From NCBI GenBank assembly GCA_020073605.1, contig JAIQEW010000009.1, positions 1 to 64,000 on the forward strand: a stretch of DNA of 64,000 nucleotides, written 5' to 3'. The notes beneath the pieces were generated by a model, which ran no database searches, was not told the origin of the DNA, and worked only from the letters and a program-made list of their open reading frames with translations. The DNA comes from Terriglobia bacterium. GTDB taxonomy: Bacteria > Acidobacteriota > Terriglobia > Acidiferrales > UBA7541. The first letter of the stretch is position 1. Every line of letters begins with the position of its first letter. Shown in pieces: positions 5,295 to 44,222 of the stretch. The translations under genes were made by a program, and so were the position numbers.

Positions 5295-5393
5295 GAGACC
5301 CCGTCCCTCCGACCCATTGGGGTCTGGGAACCACTTTGGTGTTGCTATTTCAGGTTCTGTTGGAGCTACAAGCGATAAGGAGGCGAGCAACCT

Positions 5394-7001: not shown

Positions 7002-7082
7002 GTGTGTCTTTTCTTATTCGCCAGGCGGAGGACGACACGTCGCTTTGGACTCCAGCAGTGTCCAGCTTAGGAACGATTTGAC

Positions 7083-9650: not shown

Positions 9651-9661
9651 GCGAAGACTCT

Positions 9662-11536: not shown

Positions 11537-11545
11537 GGGAATCGC

Positions 11546-14630: not shown

Positions 14631-14639
14631 GGGCATTCT

Positions 14640-15989: not shown

Positions 15990-16032
15990 GATCTCGAAGA
16001 TATTCGGAAATGGTTTGAGGAAGGAAGCCGAT

Positions 16033-17196: not shown

Positions 17197-17260
17197 GTTC
17201 CGTCATCGCATTTGATTCATTACGAAATACACTAATGAACTGCACCAGAAGGAGCCCTTC

Positions 17261-18469: not shown

Positions 18470-18472
18470 GCT

Positions 18473-19717: not shown

Positions 19718-19795
19718 TGCCAAATCCATTCTTATGTGCATCCGGAGTAAGGCAGGCACATTGAATGCTCATCTCTCACAATTCGAGGCCTGAGG

Positions 19796-21022: not shown

Positions 21023-21369
21023 CGTACCCCAAGCAAGTCGAGATAATTGGAGTATTCTTCCACAAGATTGTCACGTTGTGACCCCCAGCTCAGCTGCCTC
21101 TTCGGCTTTCGAGATCACCCGTACTAAATTGAAAATGCATGACATAGAATGGGCGAAGGCCAAAGCTTGAACTGGCGCCTGATTTGCTGCCATCGTCCAA
21201 GCTGGCGTTTATGACCTGGGTCCCCAACATCGGCACCACGCAGCAGTGTCATTCAAATTCCGGTATCATACATGGATTGGGTGCCCAGGTAGAACTTTGA
21301 GTGCCGGATATCGCGGCTCGCCGGATTCTATTCGGGGACGCTCAGGGTGGGCTTGAGCACGAACTCGAT
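21023..21369. other. Divergent intergenic region
   Basis: About 350 bases between a minus-strand glycosyltransferase and a plus-strand deacetylase. It must contain the promoter of the minus-strand gene and probably that of the deacetylase. No clear promoter pair, palindrome or small gene was recognised. In-frame GTG 21301 could lengthen the deacetylase by 23 residues. Confidence 0.4.
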
Positions 21370-22200: not shown

Positions 22201-22249
22201 GTCACGCTAACTGAGGGCTCACACCGCCCCCACCTAATTCGACCGAGGG

Positions 22250-23827: not shown

Positions 23828-24323
23828 GAGTATCCGCAGAGGGCGGCTTTTCGTGAACGGCAAGTTTATGACCAACTACCTCCACATATATAGATCACGG
23901 ATAGAAAAGAACTTACGCATGATTTGCCCGAAGACCTTGCGCATCCCAAGGATTTCGGGTCCTAGACTGGGTAAACAACTACCACTATTTGGAAGTCCCC
24001 TGCCGATGGCAGGGCGGACTAGCTGAATCAAGTTCAGTAGCCCCCATAGGTAACACATTCATTCTAATTGTCTTATTTGGAGAGCAGCGTAACTATCCTT
24101 TGGTGTCAGCCGTGCTTTTCCGATCCCCGAGACTATAGCGGCCCTCTGGCGCCAGCAGGCGGTACCCTTGGTGTGCGGGGAAGACCCCTCAGGAGTTTGT
24201 CTCGGATAGTTGCAGTGGTCAGGAAATGGGTCTCCCCAGAGGGACTGTTGATATGGACGAAGAGCGCAGTGCTGGGAAACCTTGGATAAATGCATGACAA
24301 GTCGTCGCACGAAGGGGGACAAG
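23828..24323. other. Divergent intergenic region with one perfect hairpin
   Basis: About 495 bases between divergently transcribed Wzx and the methyltransferase. It contains a perfect 7-bp hairpin at 23998-24014 (CCCTGCC, loop GAT, GGCAGGG), not followed by a T-run in either direction, and a small GGGG-AAGA-CCCC hairpin near 24178. Short frames in this stretch have no ribosome binding site and were rejected. Promoters for both units must lie here. Confidence 0.4.
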
Positions 24324-25064
24324 ATGGCGAGTGCGCAACAGGTGCCGCCTATCCAAGAGCAGCAGCAATTCTGGGATTGGCATTGGCAGAACTTGGAGGA
24401 ACGAAAGGTACTGAACGATTGGACAGAGCGGCGCGCGCGAGAAATCTTTCGGCTGATTCAAGGCCTTCACCTTGAGCGCCCGCGCATCTTGGATATGGGC
24501 TGCGGTCAGGGCTGGTTTACGGAACGTCTTTCGGATCTGGGCGACGTCACCGGAATTGACCTTTCGCCTGAGGCCATTGCTGCGGCGCGAGCGCGCCGCC
24601 CGGACATCAAATACATTGCCGCAAACGTTTATGAGGCTCGTCTGCCTGAGAATCACTACGACGTCGTTGTCTCGCAAGAAGTGATCGCACATGTGGAGAA
24701 CCAGCCAATGTATGTGGAACGGGCTGCCGATTCGCTGAAGATTGGCGGCCACCTCATCATGACGACCGGCAACAAGTTCGTGATGGATCGGATGGGGGAT
24801 GTGGGCTGGAATGTACAACCTCCCCAGCATATCGCACACCAGCTCAGCAGAGTGCAGCTCAAGAATATGCTGGCTCCCCGGTTTGATATCCTGAAAATAT
24901 TCACCATCATTCCGCACGGGCAGCGAGGAATTCTGCGCGTTGTCAACTCGTACAAGCTCAACGCTTTGGTCCGCCGGCTCATCCCTCAGGAAAAGGTCGA
25001 AAGACTTAAAGAGAAGAGCGGGTTCGGCTGGCAGATAGTTTTTCTGGCACAGAAGAAGGCCTAA
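24324..25064 (+). CDS. SAM-dependent class I methyltransferase
   Basis: A 246-residue methyltransferase. RILDMGCGQGWFTERLSDLG is motif I, TGIDLSPEAIAAARAR is motif II, YDVVVSQEVIAHVEN is the post-I region, and GGHLIMTTGNK is motif III. It resembles UbiG/methyltransf_11 enzymes that O-methylate small molecules and sugars. It opens a transcription unit with pyruvyl transferase and nucleotide-sugar genes, so methylation of a sugar in the EPS is the most economical role. ATG 24324 follows GGGGGA (24315-24319); upstream ATGs at 24282-24294 lack one. Confidence 0.85.
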   Translation: MASAQQVPPIQEQQQFWDWHWQNLEERKVLNDWTERRAREIFRLIQGLHLERPRILDMGCGQGWFTERLSDLGDVTGIDLSPEAIAAARARRPDIKYIAANVYEARLPENHYDVVVSQEVIAHVENQPMYVERAADSLKIGGHLIMTTGNKFVMDRMGDVGWNVQPPQHIAHQLSRVQLKNMLAPRFDILKIFTIIPHGQRGILRVVNSYKLNALVRRLIPQEKVERLKEKSGFGWQIVFLAQKKA

Positions 25065-25071
25065 AAGCGCC

Positions 25072-26505
25072 GTGATTGCGCCAGACAATTCGGAGAAAGT
25101 CACTTCACCAGCCAGAAGAATAGGGATTTTCGGCCACGTCGGCACAAAGAATCTCGGCGATGAAACGATTATCGCCGCAGTAATTCAGAATACGCGGCGC
25201 CGCTTCCCCGAAGCCGAAATCCGCGCCTTTACGTTTCAACCCGAAGATACGCGCCTAAGGCACGGGATCGCCGCTTTTCCGATACGTCAAGTCGTTCAAT
25301 CGCGTGTCGATCCGGAAGCGCCTACCAAGGGCGAGCATCGCACAGACTCATCGGACGGCCCGGGTGCAAGGATCCAAGCTAGCTTGAAGAAGATTCCACT
25401 TTTGTATTCCTGCCTGAAGGGAATACGGGACGGCTTTGGTTTCCTGCGGGGGATCTGGAGGGAAGTGGGATTCTTGGCGCAATCCTATCGCAATCTAAAA
25501 GGCACAGAGCTCTTGATGATCGCCGGCTCAGGACAACTGACGGATCAAAGCGGGGGCTCATGGGCGTACCCCTATACTTTCTTCAAATGGTCGTTCCTCG
25601 CCCGCGCGACGGGGACCAAGCTCGCGTTCATGAGCATCGGAACCGGTTGGATAGATTCGCCTTTGAGTAAATTCTTCTTTAGGTCTGCACTCTCCCGGGC
25701 GGACTATCTCTCCTTTCGAGGTGAAGACTTCCGCAAGCAGGTCGGGGAATGGGGTCTTCGAGGAGAAAGCATTGTTGTTCCAGACTTGGCGTACAGCTTT
25801 CACATGCCGAACATTGCGGCACAGCCGAAGTCTTCTCACTCTTCTCCAGTAGTCGGTATCAATCCCGTACCGTTCTTTCATGAAACGATGTGGCACAAGG
25901 CTGACAAACAGATCTACGACCAATACGTGCAAACGCAATCCAGCTTTGCGTCTTGGTTGATTCGCAGAGGATATACAGTACTTTTCTTCCCGACCCAATT
26001 GCGCGCTGACCCGCCGGTAATTCAAGACATTGTTCAGGCGCTGGAGCGAAACCACCCCGGACTTTCGGGATATCAAACCGTGGACCCGCCGATGCGCTCG
26101 CATGAAGATCTCATCTCCGTGATGAGCGGGATGGATATCGTCGTTGCAGCTCGCTTCCATGGCGTTCTTATATCGCATCTGCTTCACAAGCCGGTCCTGG
26201 CGGTTTCCTATCACGCAAAGACGGCGGACCTCATGGCGCAAATGGGGCAATCCCAGTGTGTATTGCATATTGATGCCTGCAGCTTGGACGCGCTGACAAG
26301 CCGTTTCCTCTTCCTGGAATCACAAAGCAAGGCTATTGCGGCAGAACTGGAACGAAGGGTTCCTTCGTGTCGCGCAGCTCTGGATTCTCAGTACGAACGG
26401 GTGTTTGGTTTATTGGAACAAGGCGTGGTGCGAGCCCAAACGCCTAACAAATCGAAAGCCTGGCCGAAGGAGCCATCGAATGCGCGTATTGATTACGGGT
26501 CATAG
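25072..26505 (+). CDS. Polysaccharide pyruvyl transferase family protein
   Basis: A 477-residue protein of the PS_pyruv_trans family, which transfers pyruvate from phosphoenolpyruvate to form ketals on polysaccharide sugars. Features: IGIFGHVGTKNLGDETIIAA at the N-terminus (typical 'G..N.GDE'), LLMIAGSGQLTDQSGGSWAY, FMSIGTGWIDSPLS, VVGINPVPFFHET, and near the C-terminus VVAARFHGVLISHLLHKPVL, the hallmark 'RfH' region. Pyruvyl groups would add negative charge to the EPS. GTG 25072 lies seven bases after the methyltransferase stop. Its end overlaps the next gene by 26 bases. Confidence 0.9.
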   Translation: MIAPDNSEKVTSPARRIGIFGHVGTKNLGDETIIAAVIQNTRRRFPEAEIRAFTFQPEDTRLRHGIAAFPIRQVVQSRVDPEAPTKGEHRTDSSDGPGARIQASLKKIPLLYSCLKGIRDGFGFLRGIWREVGFLAQSYRNLKGTELLMIAGSGQLTDQSGGSWAYPYTFFKWSFLARATGTKLAFMSIGTGWIDSPLSKFFFRSALSRADYLSFRGEDFRKQVGEWGLRGESIVVPDLAYSFHMPNIAAQPKSSHSSPVVGINPVPFFHETMWHKADKQIYDQYVQTQSSFASWLIRRGYTVLFFPTQLRADPPVIQDIVQALERNHPGLSGYQTVDPPMRSHEDLISVMSGMDIVVAARFHGVLISHLLHKPVLAVSYHAKTADLMAQMGQSQCVLHIDACSLDALTSRFLFLESQSKAIAAELERRVPSCRAALDSQYERVFGLLEQGVVRAQTPNKSKAWPKEPSNARIDYGS

Positions 26506-27541
26506 AGGATATATCGGGACAGTCCTGGCGCCATTTGTTGCCGCGGCAGGGCACGATGTCGTTGGTTTGGACACCGATCTTTTCGAACATTGTACCTTTG
26601 GGAAGCCTCCGGCAGATTTTCCCTCCATGCACAAGGATCTTCGAGACGTTTCGGCTTCCGATCTGGAAGGTTTCGACGCAATCATCCACTTGGCGGGTCT
26701 CTCAAACGATCCCCTCGGCAATCTCAATCCTGACCTGACTTACGAGATCAATCATCGGGCATCGGTTCGGCTGGCGGCACTTGCGAAGGATGCAGGCGTG
26801 CCACGTTATCTTTTCTCCTCCTCCTGCAGCACGTACGGAGCAGCCGGCGATAAGTTCCTCGATGAAACTGCGGAGTTCAATCCCGTCACGCCGTACGCCC
26901 GCTCCAAAGTTCTTGTGGAAATGGACGTGGCAAAGCTCGCCGACGATAGTTTCAGCCCCACATTTCTCCGCAATGCTACTGCCTACGGCGTTTCTCCGCG
27001 CCTTCGCTTCGATCTTGTGCTGAATAATCTGGTGGCATGGGCGATGTGCACGGGACGCGTTCTCCTGAAGAGTGACGGAACACCCTGGCGGCCTCTCGTT
27101 CATATCGAGGACATCTCTCGCGCGTTTCTGGCGGCGTTGGAAAGCCCCCGGGAGCGCGTACACAACCTTGCTGTAAACATCGGCCGGACCGATCAGAACT
27201 ATCAGATCCGGGACATCGCGGAGATCGTTGAAAAGACAGTGCCGGGTTGCCGAATCGAATTTGCCGGCGATGCGGAGCCGGACAAGCGTTGCTATCGTGT
27301 CGATTTCGGCCTCGTTCAGAAGGTTCTTCCCGCATTCAAGCCCGTGTGGGATATCCCGAAAGGCGCTAAAGAGCTTTACGAGGCTTACAGGAATGCGAGC
27401 CTGAGCGTCGAGGATTTCGAGGGAATCCGTTACAAACGCATTGATCACATCAAGAACCTGCTGGCGACGGGCCGCTTGGATCTGTCGTTGCGGTGGACAG
27501 CGCCGGCTTCACCGCACATGGTATCAACGAGAGCTCTCTAA
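26480..27541 (+). CDS. NAD-dependent epimerase/dehydratase (extended SDR)
   Basis: A 353-residue extended short-chain dehydrogenase of the nucleotide-sugar group. RVLITGHRGYIGTVLAPFVA is the NAD-binding glycine motif, FDAIIHLAGLSNDPLG follows, LFSSSCSTYG carries the catalytic Ser region, and PYARSKVLVEM is the YxxxK motif. VHIEDISRAFLAALE is typical of sugar epimerases and reductases. It resembles SDRs next to RfbC-like and cytidylyltransferase genes rather than RmlB, so a reductase or epimerase role on a keto-deoxy sugar is likely. The exact reaction cannot be told. ATG 26480 overlaps the pyruvyl transferase gene by 26 bases. Confidence 0.88.
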   Translation: MRVLITGHRGYIGTVLAPFVAAAGHDVVGLDTDLFEHCTFGKPPADFPSMHKDLRDVSASDLEGFDAIIHLAGLSNDPLGNLNPDLTYEINHRASVRLAALAKDAGVPRYLFSSSCSTYGAAGDKFLDETAEFNPVTPYARSKVLVEMDVAKLADDSFSPTFLRNATAYGVSPRLRFDLVLNNLVAWAMCTGRVLLKSDGTPWRPLVHIEDISRAFLAALESPRERVHNLAVNIGRTDQNYQIRDIAEIVEKTVPGCRIEFAGDAEPDKRCYRVDFGLVQKVLPAFKPVWDIPKGAKELYEAYRNASLSVEDFEGIRYKRIDHIKNLLATGRLDLSLRWTAPASPHMVSTRAL

Positions 27542-27568
27542 GCGCCTGATTGCGCGGGAGGATGAGGC

Positions 27569-28111
27569 TTGCTCTTTACCGAGACAAAACTGAAGGGCGC
27601 ATTCGTGCTTGAACCGGAGCGGCGGGAGGACAATCGTGGTTTTTTTGCCCGCACCTTTTGCCAGCATGAATTCGAAGCGCATGGGCTGAATCCCCTGGTA
27701 GTGCAATGCAATATTGCCTACAACAAGAAGAAGGGAACTTTGCGCGGAATGCACTTCCAAAATGCACCCTTCCAGGAGGCCAAACTGGTCCGGTGCACCA
27801 GGGGAGCGATCCAGGACGTGATTCTGGACTTGCGGCCCGATTCACCGACTTACAAGCAGTGGGTCAGTGCAGAACTGAACGAAGACAACCACAGGATGCT
27901 CTACGTTCCAGAAGGATTTGCGCACGGCTACCAAACGCTCACGGAGACGGCGGAGGTCATTTATCAGGTTTCTCAATTCTACGCTCCCGAGTCGGCAAGC
28001 GGCGTGCGGCACAACGACCCCGCTTTTGGCATTCGATGGCCGCTTGAGGTCACGTCGATTTCGGAACTGGACAAGAAATGGCCCGATTTCAAGGATTCAA
28101 AGACCACATAA
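27569..28111 (+). CDS. rfbC: dTDP-4-dehydrorhamnose 3,5-epimerase family protein
   Basis: A 180-residue cupin-fold epimerase of normal RmlC length. It shows DNRGFFARTFCQHEFEAHGL, KGTLRGMHFQ with the catalytic-base histidine, VRCTRGAIQDVILDLRPDSP, and EGFAHGYQTLTETAEVIYQV with the partner tyrosine region. In rhamnose pathways it epimerises C3 and C5 of a 4-keto-6-deoxy nucleotide sugar. No rmlA, rmlB or rmlD is in the window, and the neighbours point to a CDP-linked sugar, so its substrate may be different from dTDP-4-keto-rhamnose. TTG 27569 is supported by GGGAGGATGAGG just upstream. Confidence 0.88.
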   Translation: MLFTETKLKGAFVLEPERREDNRGFFARTFCQHEFEAHGLNPLVVQCNIAYNKKKGTLRGMHFQNAPFQEAKLVRCTRGAIQDVILDLRPDSPTYKQWVSAELNEDNHRMLYVPEGFAHGYQTLTETAEVIYQVSQFYAPESASGVRHNDPAFGIRWPLEVTSISELDKKWPDFKDSKTT

Positions 28112-28194
28112 GTGCGGTCTTCTAACCCTTGGAGACTCGGTTCTGTGACTTTGGAGTGCCAATTGAAGATCGGTAAGAACCAAGGAGAACTGGA

Positions 28195-29505
28195 ATGATT
28201 CTGGTGGATACGGCACTCGAGAAACGCAAGTCTGCGGGCAATCCCATCCGTGTTGCGCTGATCGGCGCGGGATTCTCGGCTCGCGCTGTCGCACTGAACA
28301 TCGTCACGGGAGTCCCAGGAATGGAGCTCGTCGCCATCGCGAATCGCACGCTCGAAGGAGCGCGGCGAGCCTATCGCGAGGCGGGGGTGGACTCGGTGAA
28401 GTCCGTGGAAACCGTAGCCCAACTGGAGCAGGCAATCCAATCCGGGCAGCCCGCGATTACCGACGACGCCATGCTGGTCTGCCAAGCGGCAGGGATTGAG
28501 GCCATCATAGAGGCCACCGGGCAGGTCGAATTCGGCGCTCGCGTGTCGATGAAAGCCATTGAAAACGGCAAGCATGTTGTTCTGATGAATGCCGAGTTGG
28601 ACGCCACGATTGGGCCGATCCTGAAAGTGTATGCCGATCGCGCAGGCGTTGTCTTTACCGACACCGACGGCGAGGAACCTGGCGTGGCCATGAATCTGTA
28701 TCGCTTTGCGAAGGCGATGGGATATCAACCCGTCGCGACCGGCAATATCAAGGGCATCCTGGATCGCTACAGAACCCCGGAAACGCAGATGGAAAGGGCT
28801 GCGCAATGGGGTCAGAATGCGCAGATGATCACCTCGTTTGCCGATGGCACGAAGTTAAACATGGAGTGCGCCATCATGGCCAACGCCACCGGATTCCGCG
28901 CCGGGAAGCGGGGCATGTATGGACCGGCTTGTGCCGATGTGCGAGAGGCCGCCAAGCTGTTCCCCGCGGATCAACTGCTCAACGGTGGGTTAGTGGATTA
29001 TGTGCTGGGCGCCGAGCCGAGGACGGGGGCGTGGGTTCTTGCCTACACCGAGCACCCCGTAAAGAAGTTCTATCTCGATCTATTCAAACTTGGGAGTGGT
29101 CCTTTCTATTGCCTCTATACTCCCTATCACCTGCCGCCCCTGCAAATAGGCGCCTCGGTTGCCCGCGCAGTTCTCTTTCACGATGCGACAGTTGCCCCCA
29201 TGGGCGCGCCCGTTTGCGATGTGCTCGCGGTGGCCAAGCGGGATCTAAAAGCTGGTAACGTACTCGACGGGACCGGCGGTTTTATGGCCTACGGATTGAT
29301 TGACAACGCGGAGGTTCACCAGGTGGAAGGTTTTCTGCCCGTTGGGCTCTCGGAAGGTTGCCGGCTGAAGCACGACCTTCCTAAGGACGCCCCGATCCGA
29401 TACGCGGACGTTGTGTTACCCGAAGGCCGTTTGTGCGACAAGCTGCGCGCCGAGCAAGACGATTACTTCTCGGCAGCCGTTTCCGCAAGGATGGCGAGCC
29501 GTTAG
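28195..29505 (+). CDS. NAD(P)-dependent oxidoreductase, homoserine dehydrogenase-like, with SAF-like C-terminus
   Basis: A 436-residue oxidoreductase. The N-terminal Rossmann domain has RVALIGAGFSARAVALNIVT, and the substrate region has VFTDTDGEEPGVAMNLYRFA. The C-terminal 110 residues (from about VCDVLAVAKRDLKAGNVLDG) look like a SAF domain, as in proteins that bind sugar acids or antifreeze-like folds. The overall shape resembles predicted homoserine dehydrogenase-like oxidoreductases found in lipopolysaccharide clusters beside glucose-1-phosphate cytidylyltransferases. It probably reduces or oxidises a nucleotide-sugar intermediate. AAGGAGAA precedes ATG 28195. The role is inferred from context. 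Confidence 0.8.
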   Translation: MILVDTALEKRKSAGNPIRVALIGAGFSARAVALNIVTGVPGMELVAIANRTLEGARRAYREAGVDSVKSVETVAQLEQAIQSGQPAITDDAMLVCQAAGIEAIIEATGQVEFGARVSMKAIENGKHVVLMNAELDATIGPILKVYADRAGVVFTDTDGEEPGVAMNLYRFAKAMGYQPVATGNIKGILDRYRTPETQMERAAQWGQNAQMITSFADGTKLNMECAIMANATGFRAGKRGMYGPACADVREAAKLFPADQLLNGGLVDYVLGAEPRTGAWVLAYTEHPVKKFYLDLFKLGSGPFYCLYTPYHLPPLQIGASVARAVLFHDATVAPMGAPVCDVLAVAKRDLKAGNVLDGTGGFMAYGLIDNAEVHQVEGFLPVGLSEGCRLKHDLPKDAPIRYADVVLPEGRLCDKLRAEQDDYFSAAVSARMASR

Positions 29506-29516
29506 GGAGAAGTGCA

Positions 29517-30305
29517 ATGAAAGTGGTTCTCTTCTGTGGCGGGTTGGGACTTCGGTTGCGAGAATATGCCGAGAACATTCCCAAACCCCTTGCGACGATC
29601 GGCTATCGGCCGATCCTTTGGCACGTGATGAAGTACTATGCTCATTACGGCCACAAGGAATTCATCCTGTGCCTCGGCCACCGAGCTGATGCCATCAAGA
29701 ACTACTTCGTCCACTACGATGAATATGTGTCGAACGATTTCACACTGACGGGCGATGGCAAGAACATGAACCTGATCAACCGGGACATCCATGACTGGAA
29801 GATCACCTTCGTCGACACAGGTCTTAATTCGAACATCGGCCAGCGTCTCTGCGCCGTCGAAAAGCATCTCGAAGGCGAAGAGATGTTCATGGCCAATTAC
29901 ACTGATGGTCTCTCCGACCTGCCGCTCCCGGAACACATCGATCACTTCCGGCGCCACGGAAAGACCGCCAGCTTTCTTTGCATCCGGCCCAATCTGAGTT
30001 ATCACCTTGTCACGCTAAACGGCGGAGACCTCGTAACGGGTATCGAGGATATCACTCGCAGCAACATCCGTATCAACGGCGGCTTTTTCATTTTCCGCAA
30101 GAACATCTTCAAGTACATCAAGGAAGGTGAGGAGCTCGTACAGGAGCCCTTTCGCCGCCTTGTGGCGGAGCAGCAGCTTCTTGCGTACCGCTATGACGGT
30201 TTCTGGGCTGGCATGGACACTTTTAAGGACAAGCAGCAGCTTGACGACCTCTACGCCAGGGGCAGTGCCCCCTGGGAGGTCTGGAAGACTCCCAGCGGTT
30301 ACTGA
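29517..30305 (+). CDS. rfbF: Glucose-1-phosphate cytidylyltransferase-like nucleotidyltransferase
   Basis: A 262-residue sugar-1-phosphate nucleotidyltransferase. KVVLFCGGLGLRLREYAENI is the glycine-rich nucleotide-binding loop, PKPLATIGYRPILWHVMKYY follows, and the C-terminal INGGFFIFRKNIFKYI, VQEPFRRLV and DGFWAGMDTFKDKQQLDDLY match RfbF (CDP-glucose synthase) closely in order and spacing. It should make CDP-glucose or a related CDP-sugar from CTP. The usual partner, CDP-glucose 4,6-dehydratase (RfbG), is absent from the window. ATG 29517 has GGGAGAAG upstream and follows the SAF-domain gene by 11 bases. The loop CGGLGLRLREYAE differs slightly from the common GGLGTRL, so nucleotide preference is not certain. 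Confidence 0.85.
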   Translation: MKVVLFCGGLGLRLREYAENIPKPLATIGYRPILWHVMKYYAHYGHKEFILCLGHRADAIKNYFVHYDEYVSNDFTLTGDGKNMNLINRDIHDWKITFVDTGLNSNIGQRLCAVEKHLEGEEMFMANYTDGLSDLPLPEHIDHFRRHGKTASFLCIRPNLSYHLVTLNGGDLVTGIEDITRSNIRINGGFFIFRKNIFKYIKEGEELVQEPFRRLVAEQQLLAYRYDGFWAGMDTFKDKQQLDDLYARGSAPWEVWKTPSGY

Positions 30306-30315
30306 GCGACCTTAG

Positions 30316-30975
30316 ATGCTTCCCCTGAATTTCGCCACGAACCGCCGCGGAAACTATAGGATTCTGTGCCTCGGCGCTCATTCAGACGACATTGAGATCG
30401 GGTGCGGTGGTTCGATTCTTCAGCTTCTCCAGCGCCACCGGAATCTCGACTTCCATTGGGTCGTATTCAGCTCTGGCCACAAGCGCGAACGTGAGGCACG
30501 TCGCAGCGCGGGTCTCTTCCTCAGGGGCGCAGCGAAGGAAAACGTCGTCGTTCATGACTTTCGGAATGGCTACTTCCCATCTGTGCTGAGTGACATCAAG
30601 GATTACTTTGAGGAGCTGAAGGCGGAGATTTCGCCTGACATCATATTCACGCATACGCGGCACGACCTGCACCAGGATCACCGCGCACTCAATCAGCTCA
30701 CCTGGAATACGTGGCGGAACCACGTCATACTGGAGTACGAGATCCCGAAGTACGACGGCGATCTTGGCACGCCGAATTTCTATATTCCCTTCGACCGGAA
30801 GATCGGCGCGCGCAAGATCAAATACCTGATGGATTGTTTCGGAACGCAGCGCGACAAGCATTGGTTCACGCCCGATACCTTCCACGGGTTGATGAGGATT
30901 CGCGGTATCGAAGCAAATTCGGAAGGCGGCTTGGCGGAGGGTTTCTACGCCCGAAAGGTTGTTTTGGGCGGATGA
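30316..30975 (+). CDS. PIG-L/LmbE family deacetylase
   Basis: A 219-residue zinc-dependent N-deacetylase-type protein. ILCLGAHSDDIEIGCGG is the PIG-L metal site (HxDD), and FTHTRHDLHQDHRALNQL supplies the second histidine motif. The family includes GlcNAc-PI de-N-acetylase, MshB and BshB, so deacetylation of an N-acetylated sugar is likely. Its position right after the cytidylyltransferase (11-base gap) suggests it acts on the same sugar path. If so, the final sugar could carry a free amine. ATG 30316 is the chosen start. Confidence 0.9.
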   Translation: MLPLNFATNRRGNYRILCLGAHSDDIEIGCGGSILQLLQRHRNLDFHWVVFSSGHKREREARRSAGLFLRGAAKENVVVHDFRNGYFPSVLSDIKDYFEELKAEISPDIIFTHTRHDLHQDHRALNQLTWNTWRNHVILEYEIPKYDGDLGTPNFYIPFDRKIGARKIKYLMDCFGTQRDKHWFTPDTFHGLMRIRGIEANSEGGLAEGFYARKVVLGG

Positions 30976-31006
30976 ATCGGTTTTGAGAGGAGAGCGGAGG
31001 AAACGC

Positions 31007-31912
31007 ATGGGAGAGGCCACACCTAAGCCCCGCGTAAGCGTGGGGATGCCGCTATATAATTGCGAGAAGTACGTCGCCGAAGCGATCGAGTCGCATCTCC
31101 GCCAGACGTATACGGATTTTGAGCTCATCATCACCGACAATGCCTCCACCGATCGCAGCGAAGAGATCTGCCGTGCCTACGCCGCCAGAGACTCGCGAAT
31201 CAAGTATCACCGCAATCCTGAAAACATTGGAGCGGGAGGCAACTTCAGACGGTGTTTCGAGTTGGCGCAGGGCGAATATTTCCGCTGGACTCCATCCGAT
31301 GACGTTGTCGGCCCCGAACTGCTTGAACTCTGTGTCGAAGTGCTTGACCGGGATCCCTCCGTTCTCGTCGCCTATCCTCAGACCCGTTTGATCGATGCCG
31401 ATGGCCGAATCATTGAGGATTATGACGAGAACCTTCACCTCGTCCAGGAACGTCCCAGCACGCGATTTATCGAGGTGATGCGCCGGTTGCGCCTATGCAA
31501 TCTGCAATACGGACTTACACGGCGCGAGGTATTCGGCCGGACGGGCTTGATGCGCAATTACGCTGGTGGCGACATCCCCTTGATTCTTGAGCTTTCACTC
31601 TACGGGAAGTTCTATGAAGTGCCTGAGCACCTCTTTTACCGCCGGATGCATGAAGGTGCCTCCAGCGCGATGAAAGATAACAAAGACGTTATGGCCCTGT
31701 ACGACCCCAAGAAACGGGACAAGTTTTTCGCCAGGAACTGGGTGCATTTCGGAGCGAATCTGTTGTCCGTAAGCCGCGCACCGATTCCGTTCTCTGACAA
31801 ATTGAGGCTCTACGGCTTTCTGTGCCGCGTGGTCGTATGGAGTCGAGGAGAGTATTTCAACGAGCTGGCTGGCGCCGTGCGCCATACCACGCGGAAAATC
31901 ACACACCCGTAG
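31007..31912 (+). CDS. Glycosyltransferase family 2
   Basis: A 301-residue soluble GT-A enzyme. RVSVGMPLYNCEKYVAEAIE opens the domain, with LIITDNASTDRSEEICRAYA, the DxD-like TPSDDVVGPELL, and a C-terminal extension of about 100 residues. The pattern is typical of enzymes adding a single sugar to a repeat unit. GCGGAGGAAA precedes ATG 31007, and the gene overlaps nothing. It is the last gene of the sugar cassette, so it may transfer the product of the CDP-sugar genes. Confidence 0.9.
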   Translation: MGEATPKPRVSVGMPLYNCEKYVAEAIESHLRQTYTDFELIITDNASTDRSEEICRAYAARDSRIKYHRNPENIGAGGNFRRCFELAQGEYFRWTPSDDVVGPELLELCVEVLDRDPSVLVAYPQTRLIDADGRIIEDYDENLHLVQERPSTRFIEVMRRLRLCNLQYGLTRREVFGRTGLMRNYAGGDIPLILELSLYGKFYEVPEHLFYRRMHEGASSAMKDNKDVMALYDPKKRDKFFARNWVHFGANLLSVSRAPIPFSDKLRLYGFLCRVVVWSRGEYFNELAGAVRHTTRKITHP

Positions 31913-32139
31913 TTCCTTCAAGCGAGCGAGACTCCGGTTGCGCAATGGCCTCGGACCGGAATCTGCGCAATGCCGTCTTCTGTGAATAGTGAGCGAAGGA
32001 AGGCTTGTGCACCTCATGCGCACAATTTTTCCTATGGAATGCTCCTGAGTGCTCCGTGCGAACAGCATTTCACTGAGTGCAAGGGGGATATGACTCCGCC
32101 TAGACTGGCGCGTGGCCTGCAACAGGTTAAGGAGTGCGC

Positions 32140-32295
32140 TTGGTTTTGATGTTTTTCGGCATACTTCGGGAGGCTGGGGGGTTGGCGGTTTTGGGCCTTG
32201 TGTTAGTCGGTGGAGCAGTTCTTCTCCGCAGGGTCAGCCGCCACAAACACCCCGACTTAATCTCAGCCCGAGACGCAGCAGGATCTCGAGTCTAG
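32140..32295 (+). CDS. Candidate 51-residue single-pass membrane protein
   Basis: A short frame that starts at TTG 32140, five bases after a good AAGGAG (32129-32134); in-frame ATG 32149 is an alternative. It ends at TAG 32293. It encodes one hydrophobic helix, GGLAVLGLVLVGGAVLLRR, followed by basic residues and a polar tail ending ARDAAGSRV. The helix-then-arginine layout recalls a C-terminal sorting helix, but there is no Pro-Glu-Pro motif and no large exoprotein attached. It may be a small membrane protein or a degenerate gene end. Confidence is low because of its size. Confidence 0.3.
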   Translation: MVLMFFGILREAGGLAVLGLVLVGGAVLLRRVSRHKHPDLISARDAAGSRV

Positions 32296-32615
32296 CTCAA
32301 ATTTTCGGAGGGTTGTCGCCCGCGCCCCTCTTCCCCCGTCAGACAATATCCATGGCACGCCCTGGTTCTACGAATCGTTCTGCACAATCTGCGTAATTGA
32401 CGAGGCGGGAGTGGCGTAACGGTGATCGTTGCGCTGACCGTCTTCGTGCGCGGTATTCACCCCAGCCCTGCGGGAGAGTGCTGGCATCCTGGTTCCCCCG
32501 CATGGAGTGGACAGACAACCCTCGCGCTCCGCTTGCTCTGTGCGGGCGAAGGCGTGAGAATCGATCTACCCCAGAACCGCACTCTCGAACTGCTCGCTAG
32601 AGGGAGGCACCACCG
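32296..32615. other. Intergenic stretch without a recognised gene
   Basis: About 320 bases between the small membrane frame and the coiled-coil protein. Two overlapping short frames (32397-32600 and 32422-32619) lack any family resemblance and a convincing start. No terminator, repeat or promoter pair stands out. Confidence 0.3.
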
Positions 32616-33191
32616 ATGACATCCGGCACATCAGAGCTACAGATCATCGTGCAACGCTTAGGAAAGCTGGAAGCGCAAAATCGAAGACTCAAGTGGGCCG
32701 GCGTCACGATCCTTGCGACTCTCTCTGCTGTCGTCTTAATGGGCCAAGCGGCGCCTACGCCTCGCGTCGTCGAAGCTCAGAGGTTCATACTCAAGGACAG
32801 TGACGGGAATGTGCGCGGTTGGATGGGGACCATCGGAAAGGGGTCGGAATTCACCCTGGGAAACGTCAATGCGCAACCAATGATGCGACTGATCGTGGGC
32901 ACGGACGCTAGCGACCTCCACTTCTTTGGTAGTCGCAAGAGCGGAATGAATCTGGGCCTCGATTCTGGCAACCCAGATATTTCCATGGTGGGTGCCGAAG
33001 AGAACGGCGGAGCACGAATTACGTTCGGGAAAGACGGACCCACCTTGACGTTAGAAGACGCGAAAGGATCCTCCACGATTGTGGGAGCGACCCAGCTCGG
33101 GATACCGGCCAACAGTGAGACTCATCCTATGTCGGCTGCGTCCATCGTTCTCTTGGACAGGGACAAGAGGGTAATCTGGCAAACGCCCTGA
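32616..33191 (+). CDS. Membrane-anchored coiled-coil protein with 'LKDSDGNVRG' domain, unknown function
   Basis: A 191-residue protein: a short coiled coil (ELQIIVQRLGKLEAQNRRLK), one membrane helix (WAGVTILATLSAVVLMG), and an extracytoplasmic domain made of short beta repeats. The first repeat contains VVEAQRFILKDSDGNVRGWM, and later ones MGTIGKGSEFTLGN, GGARITFGKDG and RDKRVIW. I recall many acidobacterial proteins with this 'aeqfvLrD..G.vRa.lG' arrangement, all of unknown function. The repeats suggest a small beta-solenoid displayed outside the membrane. The next gene is convergent. Confidence 0.7.
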   Translation: MTSGTSELQIIVQRLGKLEAQNRRLKWAGVTILATLSAVVLMGQAAPTPRVVEAQRFILKDSDGNVRGWMGTIGKGSEFTLGNVNAQPMMRLIVGTDASDLHFFGSRKSGMNLGLDSGNPDISMVGAEENGGARITFGKDGPTLTLEDAKGSSTIVGATQLGIPANSETHPMSAASIVLLDRDKRVIWQTP

Positions 33192-39352: not shown

Positions 39353-40366
39353 ATGAACGACGCTCACTTGAACCCGAACACCGCATCAAGCCGTGCGAGC
39401 TTCGTCCCCAGGAGCCGCATAACGGCGTACATTTTCATCGTCCTCGCTGCGATCCTCGCTGCTTCATACTACCGACTGAGAACTGACAGCATCTTCGCAT
39501 GCCAAGCGAATGGGTACTCAAAAGGGCAATATCTCGCTTATTGCCAGAGCGATGGCTACGGCGACTTCGATCACGGAGCGTTCTGGTTTGATCTCGAACC
39601 TGCCGCGACACGATCCGCCGCGGCGGCTGACGTGCTATTCATCGGCAACAGTCGCATGCAATACGGATTCTCGAGCACTGCGGCACAAGACTGGCTGGCC
39701 AAGAATACCCCGTCTTACTACCTGCTCGGATTCGCATATAATCCGAGGGTGCAATTCGAACGCGCATTGCTGAGCAAACTCGCCGCGCGCCCCCGCGTCT
39801 ATGTAATTAACCTCGATACTTTCTTCGAGGAGAATGGAGATGTGCCGGCAAGAATCGTCATGGATGAGCCGAACGCACTATCCCGTTATCAACACAAGCA
39901 GCGCTGGCAATACCTGCACCGCGCAGTGTGCGGAAAGGTTGCCGGATTCTGCGGCAACTCCTATTCCTTTTTCAGAACGCGCCAAACGGGCGTGTGGCAA
40001 TCATCAGGAGCGATTTCGGCCAATAAGGCGGTATCCGTCGACCCCAAATTCGACGCCGAAATGGTGGCGCGTGAAACTGTATCCGGCAGAGTCTTTCTAG
40101 ACAGCCTCGGCGTGGTTCCAGGTTGCATAATCTTCACGCTCGTGCCGACCGTCGATACACCATCCGCGACATCTTCGGCAATCGCGACGGCACTGCACAC
40201 CGATTTCATTGCGCCTGAGCTCGGGGGCCTCGTGACCTTTGACGGCTCACACCTCAACCGCGCGAGCGCTGAGCGATGGTCGGCAGCCTTTTTCCAAGCT
40301 GCTGGCCCCAAGATTCGGGATTGCCTGCGGACGCAGACCGCGCCGCAAGTGACGTCGGCGAATTAG
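39353..40366 (+). CDS. SGNH-like (DltD/AlgX-type) membrane-anchored acyl-transfer protein
   Basis: A 337-residue protein with an N-terminal membrane anchor (ITAYIFIVLAAILAASYY) and an extracytoplasmic SGNH-hydrolase-like domain. VLFIGNSRMQYGFS gives the nucleophile serine S100 in a GNS block, and FDGSHLNRASAERW gives the D297/H300 pair. This is the arrangement of DltD, AlgX/AlgJ and PatB-type partners of MBOAT O-acyltransferases. It begins the FkbH-ACP-MBOAT group. It probably transfers, or helps transfer, the acyl group to a glycan in the periplasm. ATG 39353 starts two bases after the stop of a doubtful 49-codon frame. Confidence 0.8.
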   Translation: MNDAHLNPNTASSRASFVPRSRITAYIFIVLAAILAASYYRLRTDSIFACQANGYSKGQYLAYCQSDGYGDFDHGAFWFDLEPAATRSAAAADVLFIGNSRMQYGFSSTAAQDWLAKNTPSYYLLGFAYNPRVQFERALLSKLAARPRVYVINLDTFFEENGDVPARIVMDEPNALSRYQHKQRWQYLHRAVCGKVAGFCGNSYSFFRTRQTGVWQSSGAISANKAVSVDPKFDAEMVARETVSGRVFLDSLGVVPGCIIFTLVPTVDTPSATSSAIATALHTDFIAPELGGLVTFDGSHLNRASAERWSAAFFQAAGPKIRDCLRTQTAPQVTSAN

Positions 40367-40423
40367 ATGTCGATGACTACGTCATTATCTGCATGTTCCA
40401 CGAACGCTATACGGAATCTCTAA

Positions 40424-42322
40424 ATGCTGGACTGGCTGCCATACCCGCATGATTTCAGCGCACAGCTTCGTGACGCCGTCCGTGCCGACTCAGCAGCGGA
40501 GCGCGTCGGGCGCCTGATCGCTCTTTCCCAATACCGGCTCGACTTTCTTCAGACAATTCAACTCAATCGGGCCATGGATACCATATTGCTGCAGGCCGGC
40601 GAAGTCCTGCCTCATTACCGGCTCGCCATTCTGGGGTCTGCCACAGTGGAGCACCTTGCTCCCGCAATTCGGGTGGCAGCTTTGCGTCGCCAATTATGGG
40701 TCGATGTCTATTGCTGCGGGTACGGCCAATACCGCCAGGAAATTATGGATCCGGGGTCCGCGTTGCACCGATTTGCTCCCCAAACGATTCTCTTTTCGAT
40801 AGCGACCATGCACGCTGTTCCCGCCGTGGAGCCTGCGGCGACCGCAGACGAAGTCGACCGTCTGACCGGCGGCGTCGTTGAGGATCTTAAATCGCTCTGG
40901 CGGCGCGCACGACAGGACCTCGGAGCGGCTATCATTCATCAGACCCTCTTAAATGTGACCGAACCCCTGTTTGGCAGTTTCGATCGCTTGGTCCCAGGAT
41001 CCCCTTGGCGGGTTGTCGAACGGTTGAATCATTTCCTCGCGGAAACTGCCTCGGCCGAAGGAGTGTCGCTGCTCGACATTGCGCGGGCCGCCCAGCGCGA
41101 TGGTCAGGATTCGTGGTTCGACGCTGCTCGCATGCTGCAGGCGAAGCAGGAAATCGCTCCGCAGTCAGCCCCCATGTACGGCGAGCTCGTTGCACGCCTC
41201 TTAGGTGCTCATCGCGGCAAATCAAGGAAGTGCCTGGTACTCGATCTCGACAACACATTGTGGGGCGGGGTGCTTGGCGATGACGGCGTAACCGGCCTCG
41301 TATTGGGACAAGGCAGTGCGGCGGGAGAGGCTTACTTAGGCGTGCAGCGCTACGCCCGACAGCTCAAAGAACGGGGCATCATTCTCGCGGTTTGTTCAAA
41401 GAACGATCCTGTTGCCGCAGAGGAAGCCTTTTCGTCCCACCCGGAGATGATCTTGAAGCGCTCCGATATCGCCGCGTTCATGGCAAATTGGGACGACAAG
41501 GCACAGAATCTCGAAGCCATCGCGGGTCAGTTAAATATAGGCTTGGACAGTCTCGTATTCCTCGACGACAACCCGGTGGAACGAGCTCGAGTGCGTGAGG
41601 CGCTTCCGGTCGTCGCTGTTCCGGAATTGCCGGACGATGTCTCGGGATACGTCCGCCGCCTTGCCGACGCCGGATATTTCGAAGCCATCAGCTTTACAAT
41701 GGAAGATCAGCAGCGAGCTTCTCAATACTCGCAAAACGTCGAGCGAGAGTCGATGCGAGGATCGGCTCAGAGTGTTGACGAATTCCTACAAGGGCTGCAG
41801 ATGTTCGTCCAATATGGACCTTTTGCAGCCGTCGACTTGCCGCGCGTCACCCAGCTGATCAACAAAACGAATCAGTTTACCCCGACGACACGGCGATATT
41901 CGGCAGAACAGATTGCGAATTACCTCAGCACGGCGGGAACCATAAACTTGCAGTTCCGTCTTCGGGACCGATTTGGCGACAATGGTCTGGTTAGCGCGAT
42001 GCTGATGTTGCCGGTCGAAGGTGCAGCGGGCTGCATTGAGATCGATACGTGGGTCATGAGTTGCCGCGTGTTCGGTCGGCAACTCGAATATGAAGCGATG
42101 AATATCGCCGTGGAGACTGCTCGGTGCAACGGGATCCGGGAAATCATTGCCACATATATCCCCACGCAAAAGAACTCTGTGATTCGTGATCTGTATCCGA
42201 AACTCGGGTTTCGGGCTGCGAACCTTCCGAATCAAAACCCGGAGGCGTCACGGTGGTCGCTGCTACTATCGGAATACATACCCTGCGCAACGCACATAAC
42301 GCGAGAAGTGAGGCGCCCATGA
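40424..42322 (+). CDS. FkbH-like HAD-IIIC family protein
   Basis: A 632-residue protein with three parts: an N-terminal SGNH-like domain of about 265 residues without clear catalytic residues, a HAD-IIIC phosphatase domain (LDLDNTLWGGVLGDDGV, catalytic D274 and D276; VCSKNDP; FLDDNPVERARVR), and a C-terminal GNAT-like domain (LRDRFGDNGLVSAML, YIPTQKNSVIRDLYPKLGF). FkbH-type enzymes dephosphorylate 1,3-bisphosphoglycerate and load the glyceryl unit onto an acyl carrier protein in polyketide and tetronate pathways. Here the next gene is a carrier protein, joined by an ATGA overlap. The loading of glycerate is inferred from the family and not proved. Confidence 0.88.
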   Translation: MLDWLPYPHDFSAQLRDAVRADSAAERVGRLIALSQYRLDFLQTIQLNRAMDTILLQAGEVLPHYRLAILGSATVEHLAPAIRVAALRRQLWVDVYCCGYGQYRQEIMDPGSALHRFAPQTILFSIATMHAVPAVEPAATADEVDRLTGGVVEDLKSLWRRARQDLGAAIIHQTLLNVTEPLFGSFDRLVPGSPWRVVERLNHFLAETASAEGVSLLDIARAAQRDGQDSWFDAARMLQAKQEIAPQSAPMYGELVARLLGAHRGKSRKCLVLDLDNTLWGGVLGDDGVTGLVLGQGSAAGEAYLGVQRYARQLKERGIILAVCSKNDPVAAEEAFSSHPEMILKRSDIAAFMANWDDKAQNLEAIAGQLNIGLDSLVFLDDNPVERARVREALPVVAVPELPDDVSGYVRRLADAGYFEAISFTMEDQQRASQYSQNVERESMRGSAQSVDEFLQGLQMFVQYGPFAAVDLPRVTQLINKTNQFTPTTRRYSAEQIANYLSTAGTINLQFRLRDRFGDNGLVSAMLMLPVEGAAGCIEIDTWVMSCRVFGRQLEYEAMNIAVETARCNGIREIIATYIPTQKNSVIRDLYPKLGFRAANLPNQNPEASRWSLLLSEYIPCATHITREVRRP

Positions 42323-42573
42323 CGGCAGGCGAAGTTCTGAAATCGTTCACGCAGATTCTCAGGGACTTGCTCGGTGATGACTCAATCGTTCTGAGTCCCT
42401 CTACGAGGCGGATCGACGTGTCTGGATGGGACTCCTTTAACTACGTGAATTTTGTGGTCGCCGTCGAAATGAAGTTCGGCGTCAAGTTTGGTGTCGCAGA
42501 AGTCGAATCGTTCCAGACCGTGGGTGAGATCGTTCAGCGCACACTGGCGTTGCTTCAGGCATCTCCGAGGTAA
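42319..42573 (+). CDS. Acyl carrier protein
   Basis: An 84-residue carrier protein with four helices. SGWDSFNYVNFVVAVEMKFG contains the phosphopantetheine attachment serine S39 in a 'DS' context, and the remainder (FGVKFGVAEVESFQTVGEIV) is typical of the helix II-III region. It is not close to the fatty acid AcpP motif DSLD, so it is a specialised carrier. ATG 42319 overlaps the FkbH stop (ATGA), and the MBOAT gene begins 14 bases after its stop. It probably carries the acyl group delivered by the FkbH-like enzyme. Confidence 0.9.
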   Translation: MTAGEVLKSFTQILRDLLGDDSIVLSPSTRRIDVSGWDSFNYVNFVVAVEMKFGVKFGVAEVESFQTVGEIVQRTLALLQASPR

Positions 42574-42587
42574 GCAGGCCGACATCG

Positions 42588-44222
42588 ATGCTTTTCAACT
42601 CCTACCAATTCATTCTCGGCTTTCTTCCAGTAACTCTGGCGATCTTCTACATTTTTGGCCGGTTCTCCAGGACATCCGCCCTGCGCTGGCTGATTTTTGC
42701 GTCTCTCGTCTTCTACGCTTGGTGGAGGCTTCTGAACGTTGCAATCATTCTGCCGTCGATCTTGATCAACTTCCTGCTCGCGCAGCGGCTGCAGCGACTC
42801 GGCGTAGATGAATCAAATCGCCGCGCTTCGAAACTGACTCTCATTGCAGGCATCGCCTTCAACGTGGCTTTTCTCGGTTACTTCAAATACACGAATTTCT
42901 TGGCCGGCGCGATCAACGATGCTTTTGGCACTCATTTCATTCTGACGCACATCATCCTGCCGCTCGGCATCTCGTTCATCACGTTTCAAAAGATCGCGTT
43001 CCTGATCGACGTTCACGGCAAACGGATCGAACCGTTCACGTTCGGAGACTACGCGCTATTCGTGCTTTTCTTTCCGCAGCTCATTGCCGGACCTATCGTC
43101 CATTACCGGGAAGTCATGCCTCAGTTCCGGCGCGCAAGCTGCAGATTTAATGGCACGGACATGTGCGTGGGGCTCACGATGTTTTTCTTTGGTTTGTTCA
43201 AGAAGGTATTCCTGGCAGACGGCATCGCACCCTTCGTTTCGCCGATCTATGAACGAGCAGCACACGGTGATCCAGTCTCCGTCCTGCCGGCGTTGATGGG
43301 TGCTGTCGGCTTTACGCTGCAGATCTACTTCGATTTTTCCGGTTATTCGGACATGGCTATCGGCATCGCCCGGTTGTTCGGAGTGCGATTGCCGCTTAAT
43401 TTCGATTCACCGCTAAAGGCCTCCAGCATCATCGATTACTGGTTGCGGTGGCACATCACACTGACCAGGTTTCTCACGGCCTATATCTATAATCCGTTGC
43501 TGCTGTGGCTTACGCGACGCAGGCTCGCTCGCGGCCGACCGGCGCTCGGCGGCCGTAACGTAACGTTCGGTGCGTTCCTTAACCTGCTCGCCCTTCCGAC
43601 GATCCTGACAATGTTCATCTCGGGGTTGTGGCACGGCGCCGGTTACACGTTCATCATCTGGGGACTGCTGCACGGCGTGTTTCTCTCGATCAATCACGGG
43701 TGGCGTCTGCTGAAAGCGAAACTGCGGCCGGCTCAAGCTAAACATGATCAGTCCGGAGGCATCGCCGGTTTTGTGCTGACCTTTGCCATAGTTTCCATCG
43801 CGATGGTGTTCTTCCGCGCCCCCACTCTCAAGGGAGCGTCGGTGATCCTCGCCGGGATGGTCGGCGTGCACGGGATCGGCTTGCCCGCCTCGATCTTTGA
43901 ACACTTGGGTCCGCTTGCAAATCTGCTGCAACGAACACGAGTCGGACGTGAAACGTGGTGGAGCGCCGTCAACTTCGCGTGGCTTACGGCCTGGACATCG
44001 CTTGCGCTGGGCATTGCGCTGCTCTGCCCGAATTCCTCGCAACTGCTCGCGCACTACGAACCCGCGTTGGGCGTCCGACCCACCGATCAAGAACAACGTG
44101 GAGCATTTGCGCGACTGGCGTGGAGTCCTTCACTGAAATGGGCCTTGGCGGTTGCAGCGGTGGCCGCCGCTGCGATCCTGCGATTCGGAGGGCCAAGTGA
44201 GTTTTTATACTGGCAGTTTTAA
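42588..44222 (+). CDS. MBOAT-family membrane O-acyltransferase (AlgI/DltB-like)
   Basis: A 544-residue polytopic membrane protein. LPLGISFITFQKIAFLIDVH, FPQLIAGPIVHYREVMPQF, FDFSGYSDMAIGIARLFGV, FDSPLKASSIIDYWLRWHIT and FISGLWHGAGYTFIIWGLLH are hallmark AlgI/DltB segments; the conserved histidines are H349 and H362. MBOATs move acyl groups from a cytoplasmic donor across the membrane to a glycan: AlgI uses an acetyl donor and DltB uses D-alanyl-DltC. Following an acyl carrier gene, this one could take its acyl group from the carrier in the DltB manner. ATG 42588 is the clear start. Confidence 0.93.
   Translation: MLFNSYQFILGFLPVTLAIFYIFGRFSRTSALRWLIFASLVFYAWWRLLNVAIILPSILINFLLAQRLQRLGVDESNRRASKLTLIAGIAFNVAFLGYFKYTNFLAGAINDAFGTHFILTHIILPLGISFITFQKIAFLIDVHGKRIEPFTFGDYALFVLFFPQLIAGPIVHYREVMPQFRRASCRFNGTDMCVGLTMFFFGLFKKVFLADGIAPFVSPIYERAAHGDPVSVLPALMGAVGFTLQIYFDFSGYSDMAIGIARLFGVRLPLNFDSPLKASSIIDYWLRWHITLTRFLTAYIYNPLLLWLTRRRLARGRPALGGRNVTFGAFLNLLALPTILTMFISGLWHGAGYTFIIWGLLHGVFLSINHGWRLLKAKLRPAQAKHDQSGGIAGFVLTFAIVSIAMVFFRAPTLKGASVILAGMVGVHGIGLPASIFEHLGPLANLLQRTRVGRETWWSAVNFAWLTAWTSLALGIALLCPNSSQLLAHYEPALGVRPTDQEQRGAFARLAWSPSLKWALAVAAVAAAAILRFGGPSEFLYWQF

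Follow-up and report, generated by a model that had tools for sequence, protein, structure and literature searches.

Three kinds of described system are among those closest to the locus reported here. The Dlt pathway, which D-alanylates teichoic acids, comprises an adenylating ligase, DltA, a carrier protein, DltC, an acyltransferase of the MBOAT family, DltB, an anchored SGNH-type partner, DltD, and an acyl-tyrosine shuttle motif, FXYXXF. This motif is carried by the microprotein DltX in Dlt and by the C terminus of the MBOAT in other systems (PMC12148441). The carrier docks on helix HC of DltB, where Met36 and Val39 of DltC contact Met302, Val305, Ile306 and Met309 of DltB, and Glu40 forms a bridge to Lys312 and Arg317 (PMC11035591). 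In PatA-PatB and AlgI O-acetylation an MBOAT with the motif fused to its C terminus is paired with a separate SGNH protein, and the non-Dlt pathways lack a carrier protein according to PMC12148441. FkbH-type enzymes with a discrete acyl carrier protein (ACP) belong to tetronate and methoxymalonyl pathways, in which loading of a glyceryl unit from 1,3-bisphosphoglycerate is proposed and the glyceryl passes into a polyketide (PMC7489565).

Here we compare these systems with four consecutive plus-strand genes in a 64,000-nucleotide stretch of a Terriglobia bacterium genome (contig JAIQEW010000009.1, positions 1 to 64,000; the window), which encode a putative anchored SGNH-type protein, an FkbH-type HAD-IIIC protein, an ACP and an MBOAT. 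We consider it likely that together they form a carrier-fed MBOAT-SGNH acyl relay that is charged by the FkbH enzyme. An initial annotation of this DNA had proposed such a Dlt-like relay, with FkbH replacing DltA. Its four reading frames, the ATGA overlap of the FkbH and ACP genes (42319-42322), the 14-base gap between ACP and MBOAT and all of the residues that it named (S100, D297 and H300 of the SGNH protein, D274 and D276 of FkbH, S39 of the ACP, H349 and H362 of the MBOAT) proved correct. The SGNH open frame could alternatively start at 39239. Searches of the host genome (3.66 Mb in 30 contigs) found a single copy each of the MBOAT, FkbH and the window SGNH family.

Parts of the predicted relay

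The window MBOAT scores 70 bits against PF03062 (cut-off 27), and its model, with a predicted local distance difference test (pLDDT) score of 91.5, has DltB as its top fold match. By sequence, the MBOAT profile matches no solved structures other than DltB entries, which also lead by fold. H289 and H349 of the window protein fall on H289 and H336 of DltB, and both are invariant in 34 aligned MBOATs. The initial annotation had paired H349 with H362; by the DltB alignment H362 corresponds to DltB H349, and it is H289 that takes the place of the second catalytic-type histidine. The protein ends in FLYWQF, an exact fit to the FXYXXF of DltX and PatA, and all 34 aligned MBOATs have F539, Y541 and F544. 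Frames of MBOATs near FkbH end in [FIVL]xYxxF in 45 of 49 cases; two of the four exceptions are cut by contig ends (L089, L109) and two are without the motif (L111, L156). The window form appears to be a hybrid, fed by a carrier as in Dlt and with its shuttle fused to the MBOAT as in PatA.

The FkbH protein matches TIGR01686 at 296 bits (cut-off 147), and D274, D276, K326, D381, D382 and C547 are each kept in at least 90 of 92 sequences. The likeness to the tetronate and methoxymalonyl systems thus extends to conserved catalytic residues, whereas the partner here is a membrane acyltransferase. Our guess is that the C-terminal cysteine of FkbH holds the acyl group. The ACP scores 28.8 against PF00550 (cut-off 20.8); the phosphopantetheine serine is present in 66 of 66 ACPs, and the residue four positions after it is I, V or L in every one of them. 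The nearest solved carrier structure is 2lml, which we take to be GmACP3. Since the host genome holds one match to a phosphopantetheinyl transferase, the ACP can presumably be made holo.

Neither Pfam nor NCBIfam gives a match to the SGNH protein up to E 0.1. We assign it to its class because of an invariant GxS...DxxH signature together with weak fold matches. The signature (S100, D297, H300) is shared with its three relatives among the fetched loci searched, all of them immediately upstream of FkbH. Its model has an N-terminal helix and is weak overall (pLDDT 51); the top five fold matches, at E 0.01 to 0.04, are GDSL lipase, platelet-activating factor acetylhydrolase and PatB chains, all of which are presumably of SGNH fold, with unrelated or weaker matches from rank 6 down. 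At other loci the partner differs in sequence from the window protein. When an SGNH-signature open reading frame (ORF) is defined by an N-terminal hydrophobic segment, a GxS and a late DxxH, 24 of 104 candidates near FkbH or MBOAT qualify, against 3 of 306 farther off. The neighbour table, with nine near-duplicate loci left out, holds 40 loci and 181 neighbour ORFs. A signature-bearing neighbour was recognised by eye in 20 of 40 non-redundant MBOAT-linked loci, with two more doubtful (L131, L145), and L088 and L089 are two further such loci beyond the 40.

These parts repeat much of Dlt: a carrier, a DltB-like MBOAT with the same two histidines and a similar docking segment, a putative anchored SGNH-type partner and the shuttle motif. 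They differ from it in that FkbH stands in place of the adenylating ligase and that the window MBOAT carries the shuttle itself, as a fusion. DltA was not found in the cluster, where FkbH occurs instead, and the rest of the genome was not searched for it. Scores against the DltB model (174 bits, cut-off 375) and two DltC models (18.0 against 68 and 14.9 against 52) are far below cut-off. Because the cluster has no DltA and the DltB and DltC models fall so short, the relay appears to be a variant of the MBOAT-SGNH relay and not the Dlt system proper. To our knowledge, teichoic acid is not expected in such bacteria.

Recurrence, docking segment and shuttle

A profile made from an alignment of four FkbH proteins gave 566 confirmed FkbH relatives among at least 594 candidate stretches. 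We analysed the best 80, which are the closest to the window FkbH and so biased towards its kind; locus counts rest on mechanically called ORFs and phmmer hits, and an ACP hit may sit in an over-long frame. In 69 of these 80 loci FkbH has an ACP gene no more than 300 bp away. An MBOAT is found at up to 3 kb in 49 loci, in 36 of them at up to 400 bp, and 44 loci have both the ACP and the MBOAT within these limits of 300 bp and 3 kb. A less biased sample comes from 396 genomes of the phylum to which the window belongs, where 54 matches exceed the curated FkbH cut-off: the window itself and 53 others. Within 3 kb of FkbH, 36 of the 53 have an ACP and 19 an MBOAT, and all 19 have both. Hosts of MBOAT-linked loci include Acidobacteriota, Alpha-, Beta- and Gammaproteobacteria, Magnetococcales and Nitrospinota; no FkbH relatives were found in the viral contigs searched.

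The initial annotation had proposed searching other genomes for the same four-gene order. What is conserved there is the set, in variable arrangements (MBOAT-FkbH-ACP, ACP-FkbH-MBOAT, FkbH-ACP-MBOAT and others), and among the relatives found only the closest share the order. SGNH-FkbH-ACP-MBOAT, the order of the window, recurs in a betaproteobacterial metagenome-assembled genome (MAG; L088) and in a Bryobacteraceae MAG in which the MBOAT is cut by the contig end (L089), and a locus from another family of the same phylum (L068) has it with a MaoC-SDR gene between ACP and MBOAT. On pSymB of Sinorhizobium meliloti 1021, genes for VOC, MBOAT, SGNH-like, ACP and FkbH proteins stand in a row (L214:13206-19235). 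The FkbH gene of this strain is split over two frames, and among the matches listed most other strains have a one-piece match.

It could be argued that the MBOAT and SGNH proteins are an ordinary AlgI/PatA-type pair that O-acetylates from acetyl-CoA, and that FkbH and ACP belong to an unrelated glycerate pathway alongside. In favour of this, FkbH-ACP pairs without an MBOAT and MBOATs without an adjacent FkbH both occur, and the shuttle motif is common to linked and unlinked MBOATs. The frequency of nearby MBOATs in both samples argues against it, as do the overlap of the FkbH and ACP genes with the MBOAT only 14 bp on, and a window-type ACP-MBOAT pair with no FkbH beside it on a 7.4 kb contig (L178:5214-7195), from a Rhodopila genome whose FkbH-ACP pair lies elsewhere (L105). 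The docking segment described next is a further point against it, and we judge ordinary O-acetylation very unlikely here.

The window MBOAT and DltB align without gaps from H289 to residue 317, and the model of the window protein has a helix at 290-314. Window L305, L306, R312 and R317 stand where DltB has V305, I306, K312 and R317; N302 and T309 differ from M302 and M309. AlgI has LGGNR at this docking site, whereas the window protein has a hydrophobic and basic segment. LGG[NS]R after the RWH motif, a mark found in this analysis and without a published definition, is absent from 55 of 55 FkbH-linked MBOATs (window included) and present in 20 of 29 unlinked ones (Fisher test, 9e-13); the 55 rows include several near-identical Stutzerimonas sequences, and eight duplicate or FkbH-linked loci were left out of the unlinked tree set. 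Single positions are readable in 53 of the 55 linked rows, and 305 and 306 are both hydrophobic in 38 of 53 linked against 4 of 29 unlinked MBOATs. We also tried the net charge of the segment after RWH, which separates linked from unlinked proteins weakly (p 0.02) and was set aside; segment length separates them strongly (p 2e-8), and LGG[NS]R is the clearer mark. Within a single Pseudomonas genome, AlgI (recognised by its downstream AlgF) and two further MBOATs carry LGGNR and the FkbH-linked MBOAT does not. Nine unlinked MBOATs are without LGG[NS]R, five of them (L044, L052, L169, L170, L171) from genomes with FkbH elsewhere. In the tree of MBOATs, a protein from a genome of the same class as the window (G178) falls with named Acidobacteriota loci, which, like the 'acido' model nearest to the window's quinoprotein, makes an acidobacterial host probable.

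If the proposed relay is right, it requires a shuttle, so that short MBOATs without a fused motif need a DltX. Five such MBOATs of 428-463 aa occur in the own-phylum sample (L218, L219, L220, L222, L224), and they are also without LGG[NS]R. A small gene directly precedes the MBOAT in each of the five loci, overlapping its open frame in L219, and the encoded proteins have one hydrophobic helix and end in LVYQAF or LVYKGF. The order is FkbH-ACP-SGNH-small protein-MBOAT, with the SGNH signature checked in L218, L219 and L222. With all five parts in place, including a separate small shuttle-type protein, some relatives appear to have the Dlt architecture with FkbH in DltA's place. Their small proteins differ from DltX in ending LVYxxF and not in the strict FXYXXF.

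Among the 17,965 ORFs of 30-110 aa in the 2.24 Mb of sequence fetched, only six combine a hydrophobic helix with a terminal [FILVM]xYxxF, those of the five loci and one at L156 (IAYQQF). All six come from loci with FkbH-linked MBOATs that have no fused motif. The first motif position is F in none of the six, which therefore fit only the loosened motif; loosened ends also occur in fused motifs of other linked MBOATs (IVYKAF, VVYKAF). The L156 ORF is marginal, as it shares 85 bases with the start of an SGNH-like frame and is not next to the MBOAT. Seven complete linked MBOAT frames are without a fused motif and, with L156 counted, six of these have a small shuttle-type gene nearby. Pfam scans of three of the small proteins gave no match over cut-off.

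The core of the initial annotation, an acyl relay of Dlt type with FkbH replacing DltA, is supported by recurrence, the shuttle motif, the HC-like helix and the DltX-like proteins, each a test that it could have failed. Several observations weigh against it. No MBOAT lies within 3 kb of FkbH in 31 of the best 80 loci, some of which are at contig ends, or in 34 of the 53 own-phylum loci; among ten genomes without a nearby MBOAT, eight match the window MBOAT elsewhere and two have no match. Only 2 of 19 same-genus genomes have an FkbH match (29% identity; a fragment), although several of the genomes are incomplete. The docking contrast depends on phylogeny, as the linked MBOATs cluster on the tree (9 changes versus 25.6 in shuffles). 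Fifteen of 53 linked MBOATs are not hydrophobic at both 305 and 306, and a K or R in 310-312 discriminates less well (51 of 53 linked versus 16 of 29 unlinked). Four unlinked MBOATs without LGG[NS]R (L040, L055, L060, L065) come from genomes with no FkbH match in the scan of the window's phylum; they possibly belong to another carrier-fed system with a different loading enzyme. The carrier residue that matches DltC Glu40 is acidic in only 14 of 66 ACPs, and the poor SGNH model has no fold match with E below 0.001. One complete FkbH-linked MBOAT frame of 498 aa, in a Hyphomicrobium MAG (L111:11156-12652), has neither a fused motif nor a small shuttle gene. The shuttle motif is also carried by unlinked MBOATs, so we rejected it as a marker of cargo or of FkbH linkage; it marks the relay class.

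A last point of this kind comes from a Niveispirillum plasmid (L216:6980-11466), where the order is FkbH-ACP-WcbI-MaoC/SDR and the polysaccharide acyltransferase that partners FkbH and ACP is WcbI. Because WcbI is soluble, transfer would be on the cytoplasmic side, and it is possible that this set is a cytoplasmic counterpart of the relay. The WcbI partner, and the two genomes with no match to the window MBOAT, show that the FkbH-ACP cassette is modular. Rare in the window's own genus and found across phyla, the FkbH set looks like an accessory set that has spread across phyla.

Cargo, acceptor and wider meaning

In the relay that we propose, FkbH would take a D-glyceryl unit from 1,3-bisphosphoglycerate, remove the phosphate and load the phosphopantetheine of the ACP, as expected from its family and from the active-site residues present. 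The ACP would dock on the cytoplasmic HC-type helix of the MBOAT, a site modelled on DltB and PatA that is present and conserved here. The MBOAT, with H349, would then move the acyl group to Tyr541 of its own FLYWQF, again by analogy with DltB and PatA. Outside the membrane the motif may hand the group on to Ser100 of the putative anchored SGNH protein, which would esterify a hydroxyl of a surface glycan, most plausibly the exopolysaccharide (EPS) of the upstream locus. Energy would be supplied by a mixed anhydride of glycolysis, and neither ATP-driven adenylation nor acyl-CoA would be needed. We infer the glyceryl cargo from the FkbH family, and the neighbouring EPS as acceptor from proximity. 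Plain glyceryl would be the simplest cargo because the window cluster is without a tailoring gene.

The same relay might instead carry a tailored cargo, with MaoC and SDR enzymes giving pyruvoyl- and then lactyl-ACP, VOC proteins epimerising C2, and methyltransferases yielding O-methylglyceryl. Our family scan covered 79 neighbour ORFs, hand-picked by strand and length, and four plasmid ORFs. MaoC-SDR fusions of about 490-520 aa lie near FkbH-ACP (L068:688-2229, L090:15317-16867, L092:11137-12597, L141:7983-9476, L147:10806-12365, L216:9958-11466), and separate MaoC and SDR genes occur in L069, L110, L129, L156, L219 and L077. VOC genes are near the set in L071 and on S. meliloti and Rhodobacteraceae plasmids, PF13669 matches 6 of 83 neighbour proteins, and relatives also have methyltransferases near the set. 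The lactyl route has a parallel in bryostatin biosynthesis, in which a lactyl unit is reportedly made from glyceryl on a carrier; a literature search turned up nothing on it. For suomilide, O-methylation following a glycerate-loading FkbH domain is proposed (PMC13122637). In the window the cluster contains no tailoring enzyme, ACP and MBOAT being directly adjacent, and such enzymes would have to be encoded elsewhere in the genome. For the window we judge a tailored cargo to be unlikely; relatives that have the dehydratase and reductase genes may move lactyl.

A different use of FkbH and ACP, as in the tetronate and methoxymalonyl pathways, would be to make or export a small secreted molecule, which the MBOAT then acylates. 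The FkbH literature found concerns polyketide or peptide pathways, and the suomilide cluster holds both a glycerate-loading FkbH domain and an MBOAT (PMC13122637). Polyketide synthase, non-ribosomal peptide synthetase and ketosynthase families are, however, absent among the 37 window proteins scanned with Pfam, the putative anchored SGNH partner and the shuttle motif suggest transfer outside the membrane, and the upstream locus is one for EPS. A secreted small molecule is in our view extremely unlikely.

Returning to the FkbH-charged relay, it may be one instance of a widespread third route of polysaccharide acylation, which would run from 1,3-bisphosphoglycerate through an FkbH-loaded carrier, with optional remodelling to lactyl, epimerised or O-methylated glyceryl, to an MBOAT, tyrosine and SGNH relay; we hold the case for so general a route to be evenly balanced. 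Searches of the open literature on FkbH together with MBOAT, glyceric acid, O-antigen or exopolysaccharide, and on HAD-IIIC with MBOAT and polysaccharide, found no report of such a relay. If the route exists, surface decoration would be tied to glycolytic flux, and its enzymes could be the ones that make glyceryl esters, among them the L-glycerate carried by gellan (PMC9104527). According to a 2015 review, only one acetyltransferase had been verified for gellan acetylation (PMC4443731), and the mechanism of acyl addition to sphingans has been called unclear (PMC5399355). An FkbH match of at least 560 residues is present in 17 of 250 genomes of the genus Sphingomonas, which gives no link to gellan.

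The proposed relay, if true, would also mean that the logic of Dlt is modular, with a swappable loading enzyme that opens the way to surface groups other than D-alanine or acetate. It becomes testable how glycerate-type esters reach polysaccharides, how MBOATs discriminate between a carrier protein and acyl-CoA (an HC-type segment versus LGG[NS]R), and whether cells adjust the acylation of their surface to glycolysis. A function is suggested as well for genes that are labelled HAD-IIIC family phosphatase, acyl carrier protein, MBOAT family protein or hypothetical protein.

Feature coordinates and surroundings

Table 1. Positions of the predicted relay genes and sites in the window, the upstream exopolysaccharide locus, and candidate shuttle proteins in related loci
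Feature	Position	Strand	Details
Putative membrane-anchored SGNH-type protein (DltD/PatB-like role)	39353..40366	+	S100 at 39650-39652; D297-H300 at 40241-40252
FkbH-type HAD-IIIC glyceryl transferase/phosphatase (DltA's place)	40424..42322	+	D274/D276 at 41243-41251; conserved C547 at 42062-42064
Acyl carrier protein (DltC-like role)	42319..42573	+	Phosphopantetheine Ser39 at 42433-42435
MBOAT O-acyltransferase (DltB/PatA-like)	42588..44222	+	H289 at 43452-43454; H349 at 43632-43634
MBOAT residues 299-317, matching DltB helix HC (DltC docking)	43482..43538	+	L305, L306, R312, R317; AlgI-type proteins have LGG[NS]R here
C-terminal acyl-shuttle motif FLYWQF, residues 539-544	44202..44219	+	Y541 = predicted acyl acceptor
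XrtA/PEP-CTERM-type exopolysaccharide locus, possible source of acceptor glycan	1407..33191	.	Upstream; proximity only
Candidate DltX analogue	L218:8403-8537
Candidate DltX analogue	L219:8317-8544
Candidate DltX analogue	L220:4464-4685
Candidate DltX analogue	L222:4451-4585
Candidate DltX analogue	L224:4464-4772
Candidate DltX analogue	L156:10837-10953

Between the EPS locus and the cluster lies a gene for a quinoprotein with a cytochrome c domain (36946-39186), whose nearest model, 'acido-empty-quinoprotein group A', it matches below the cut-off of that model. Directly 3' of the MBOAT, a PAP2-family gene (44407-45132) resembles undecaprenyl-diphosphate phosphatase; we considered it as a member of the set and rejected it, as it has no relative in L068, L088, L089, L139, L150 or L178. 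Base composition, considered as a clue to foreign origin, proved uninformative, since the 53-58% GC of the cluster is close to the 56% of the EPS locus. That locus has matches over cut-off to the priming transferase TIGR03013, FemAB TIGR03019, the amidotransferase TIGR03108, the ligase TIGR03097 and the deacetylase TIGR03006, and it also holds flippase, export and chain-length genes. A pyruvyl transferase gene and two asparagine-synthase-like genes lie within it as well.

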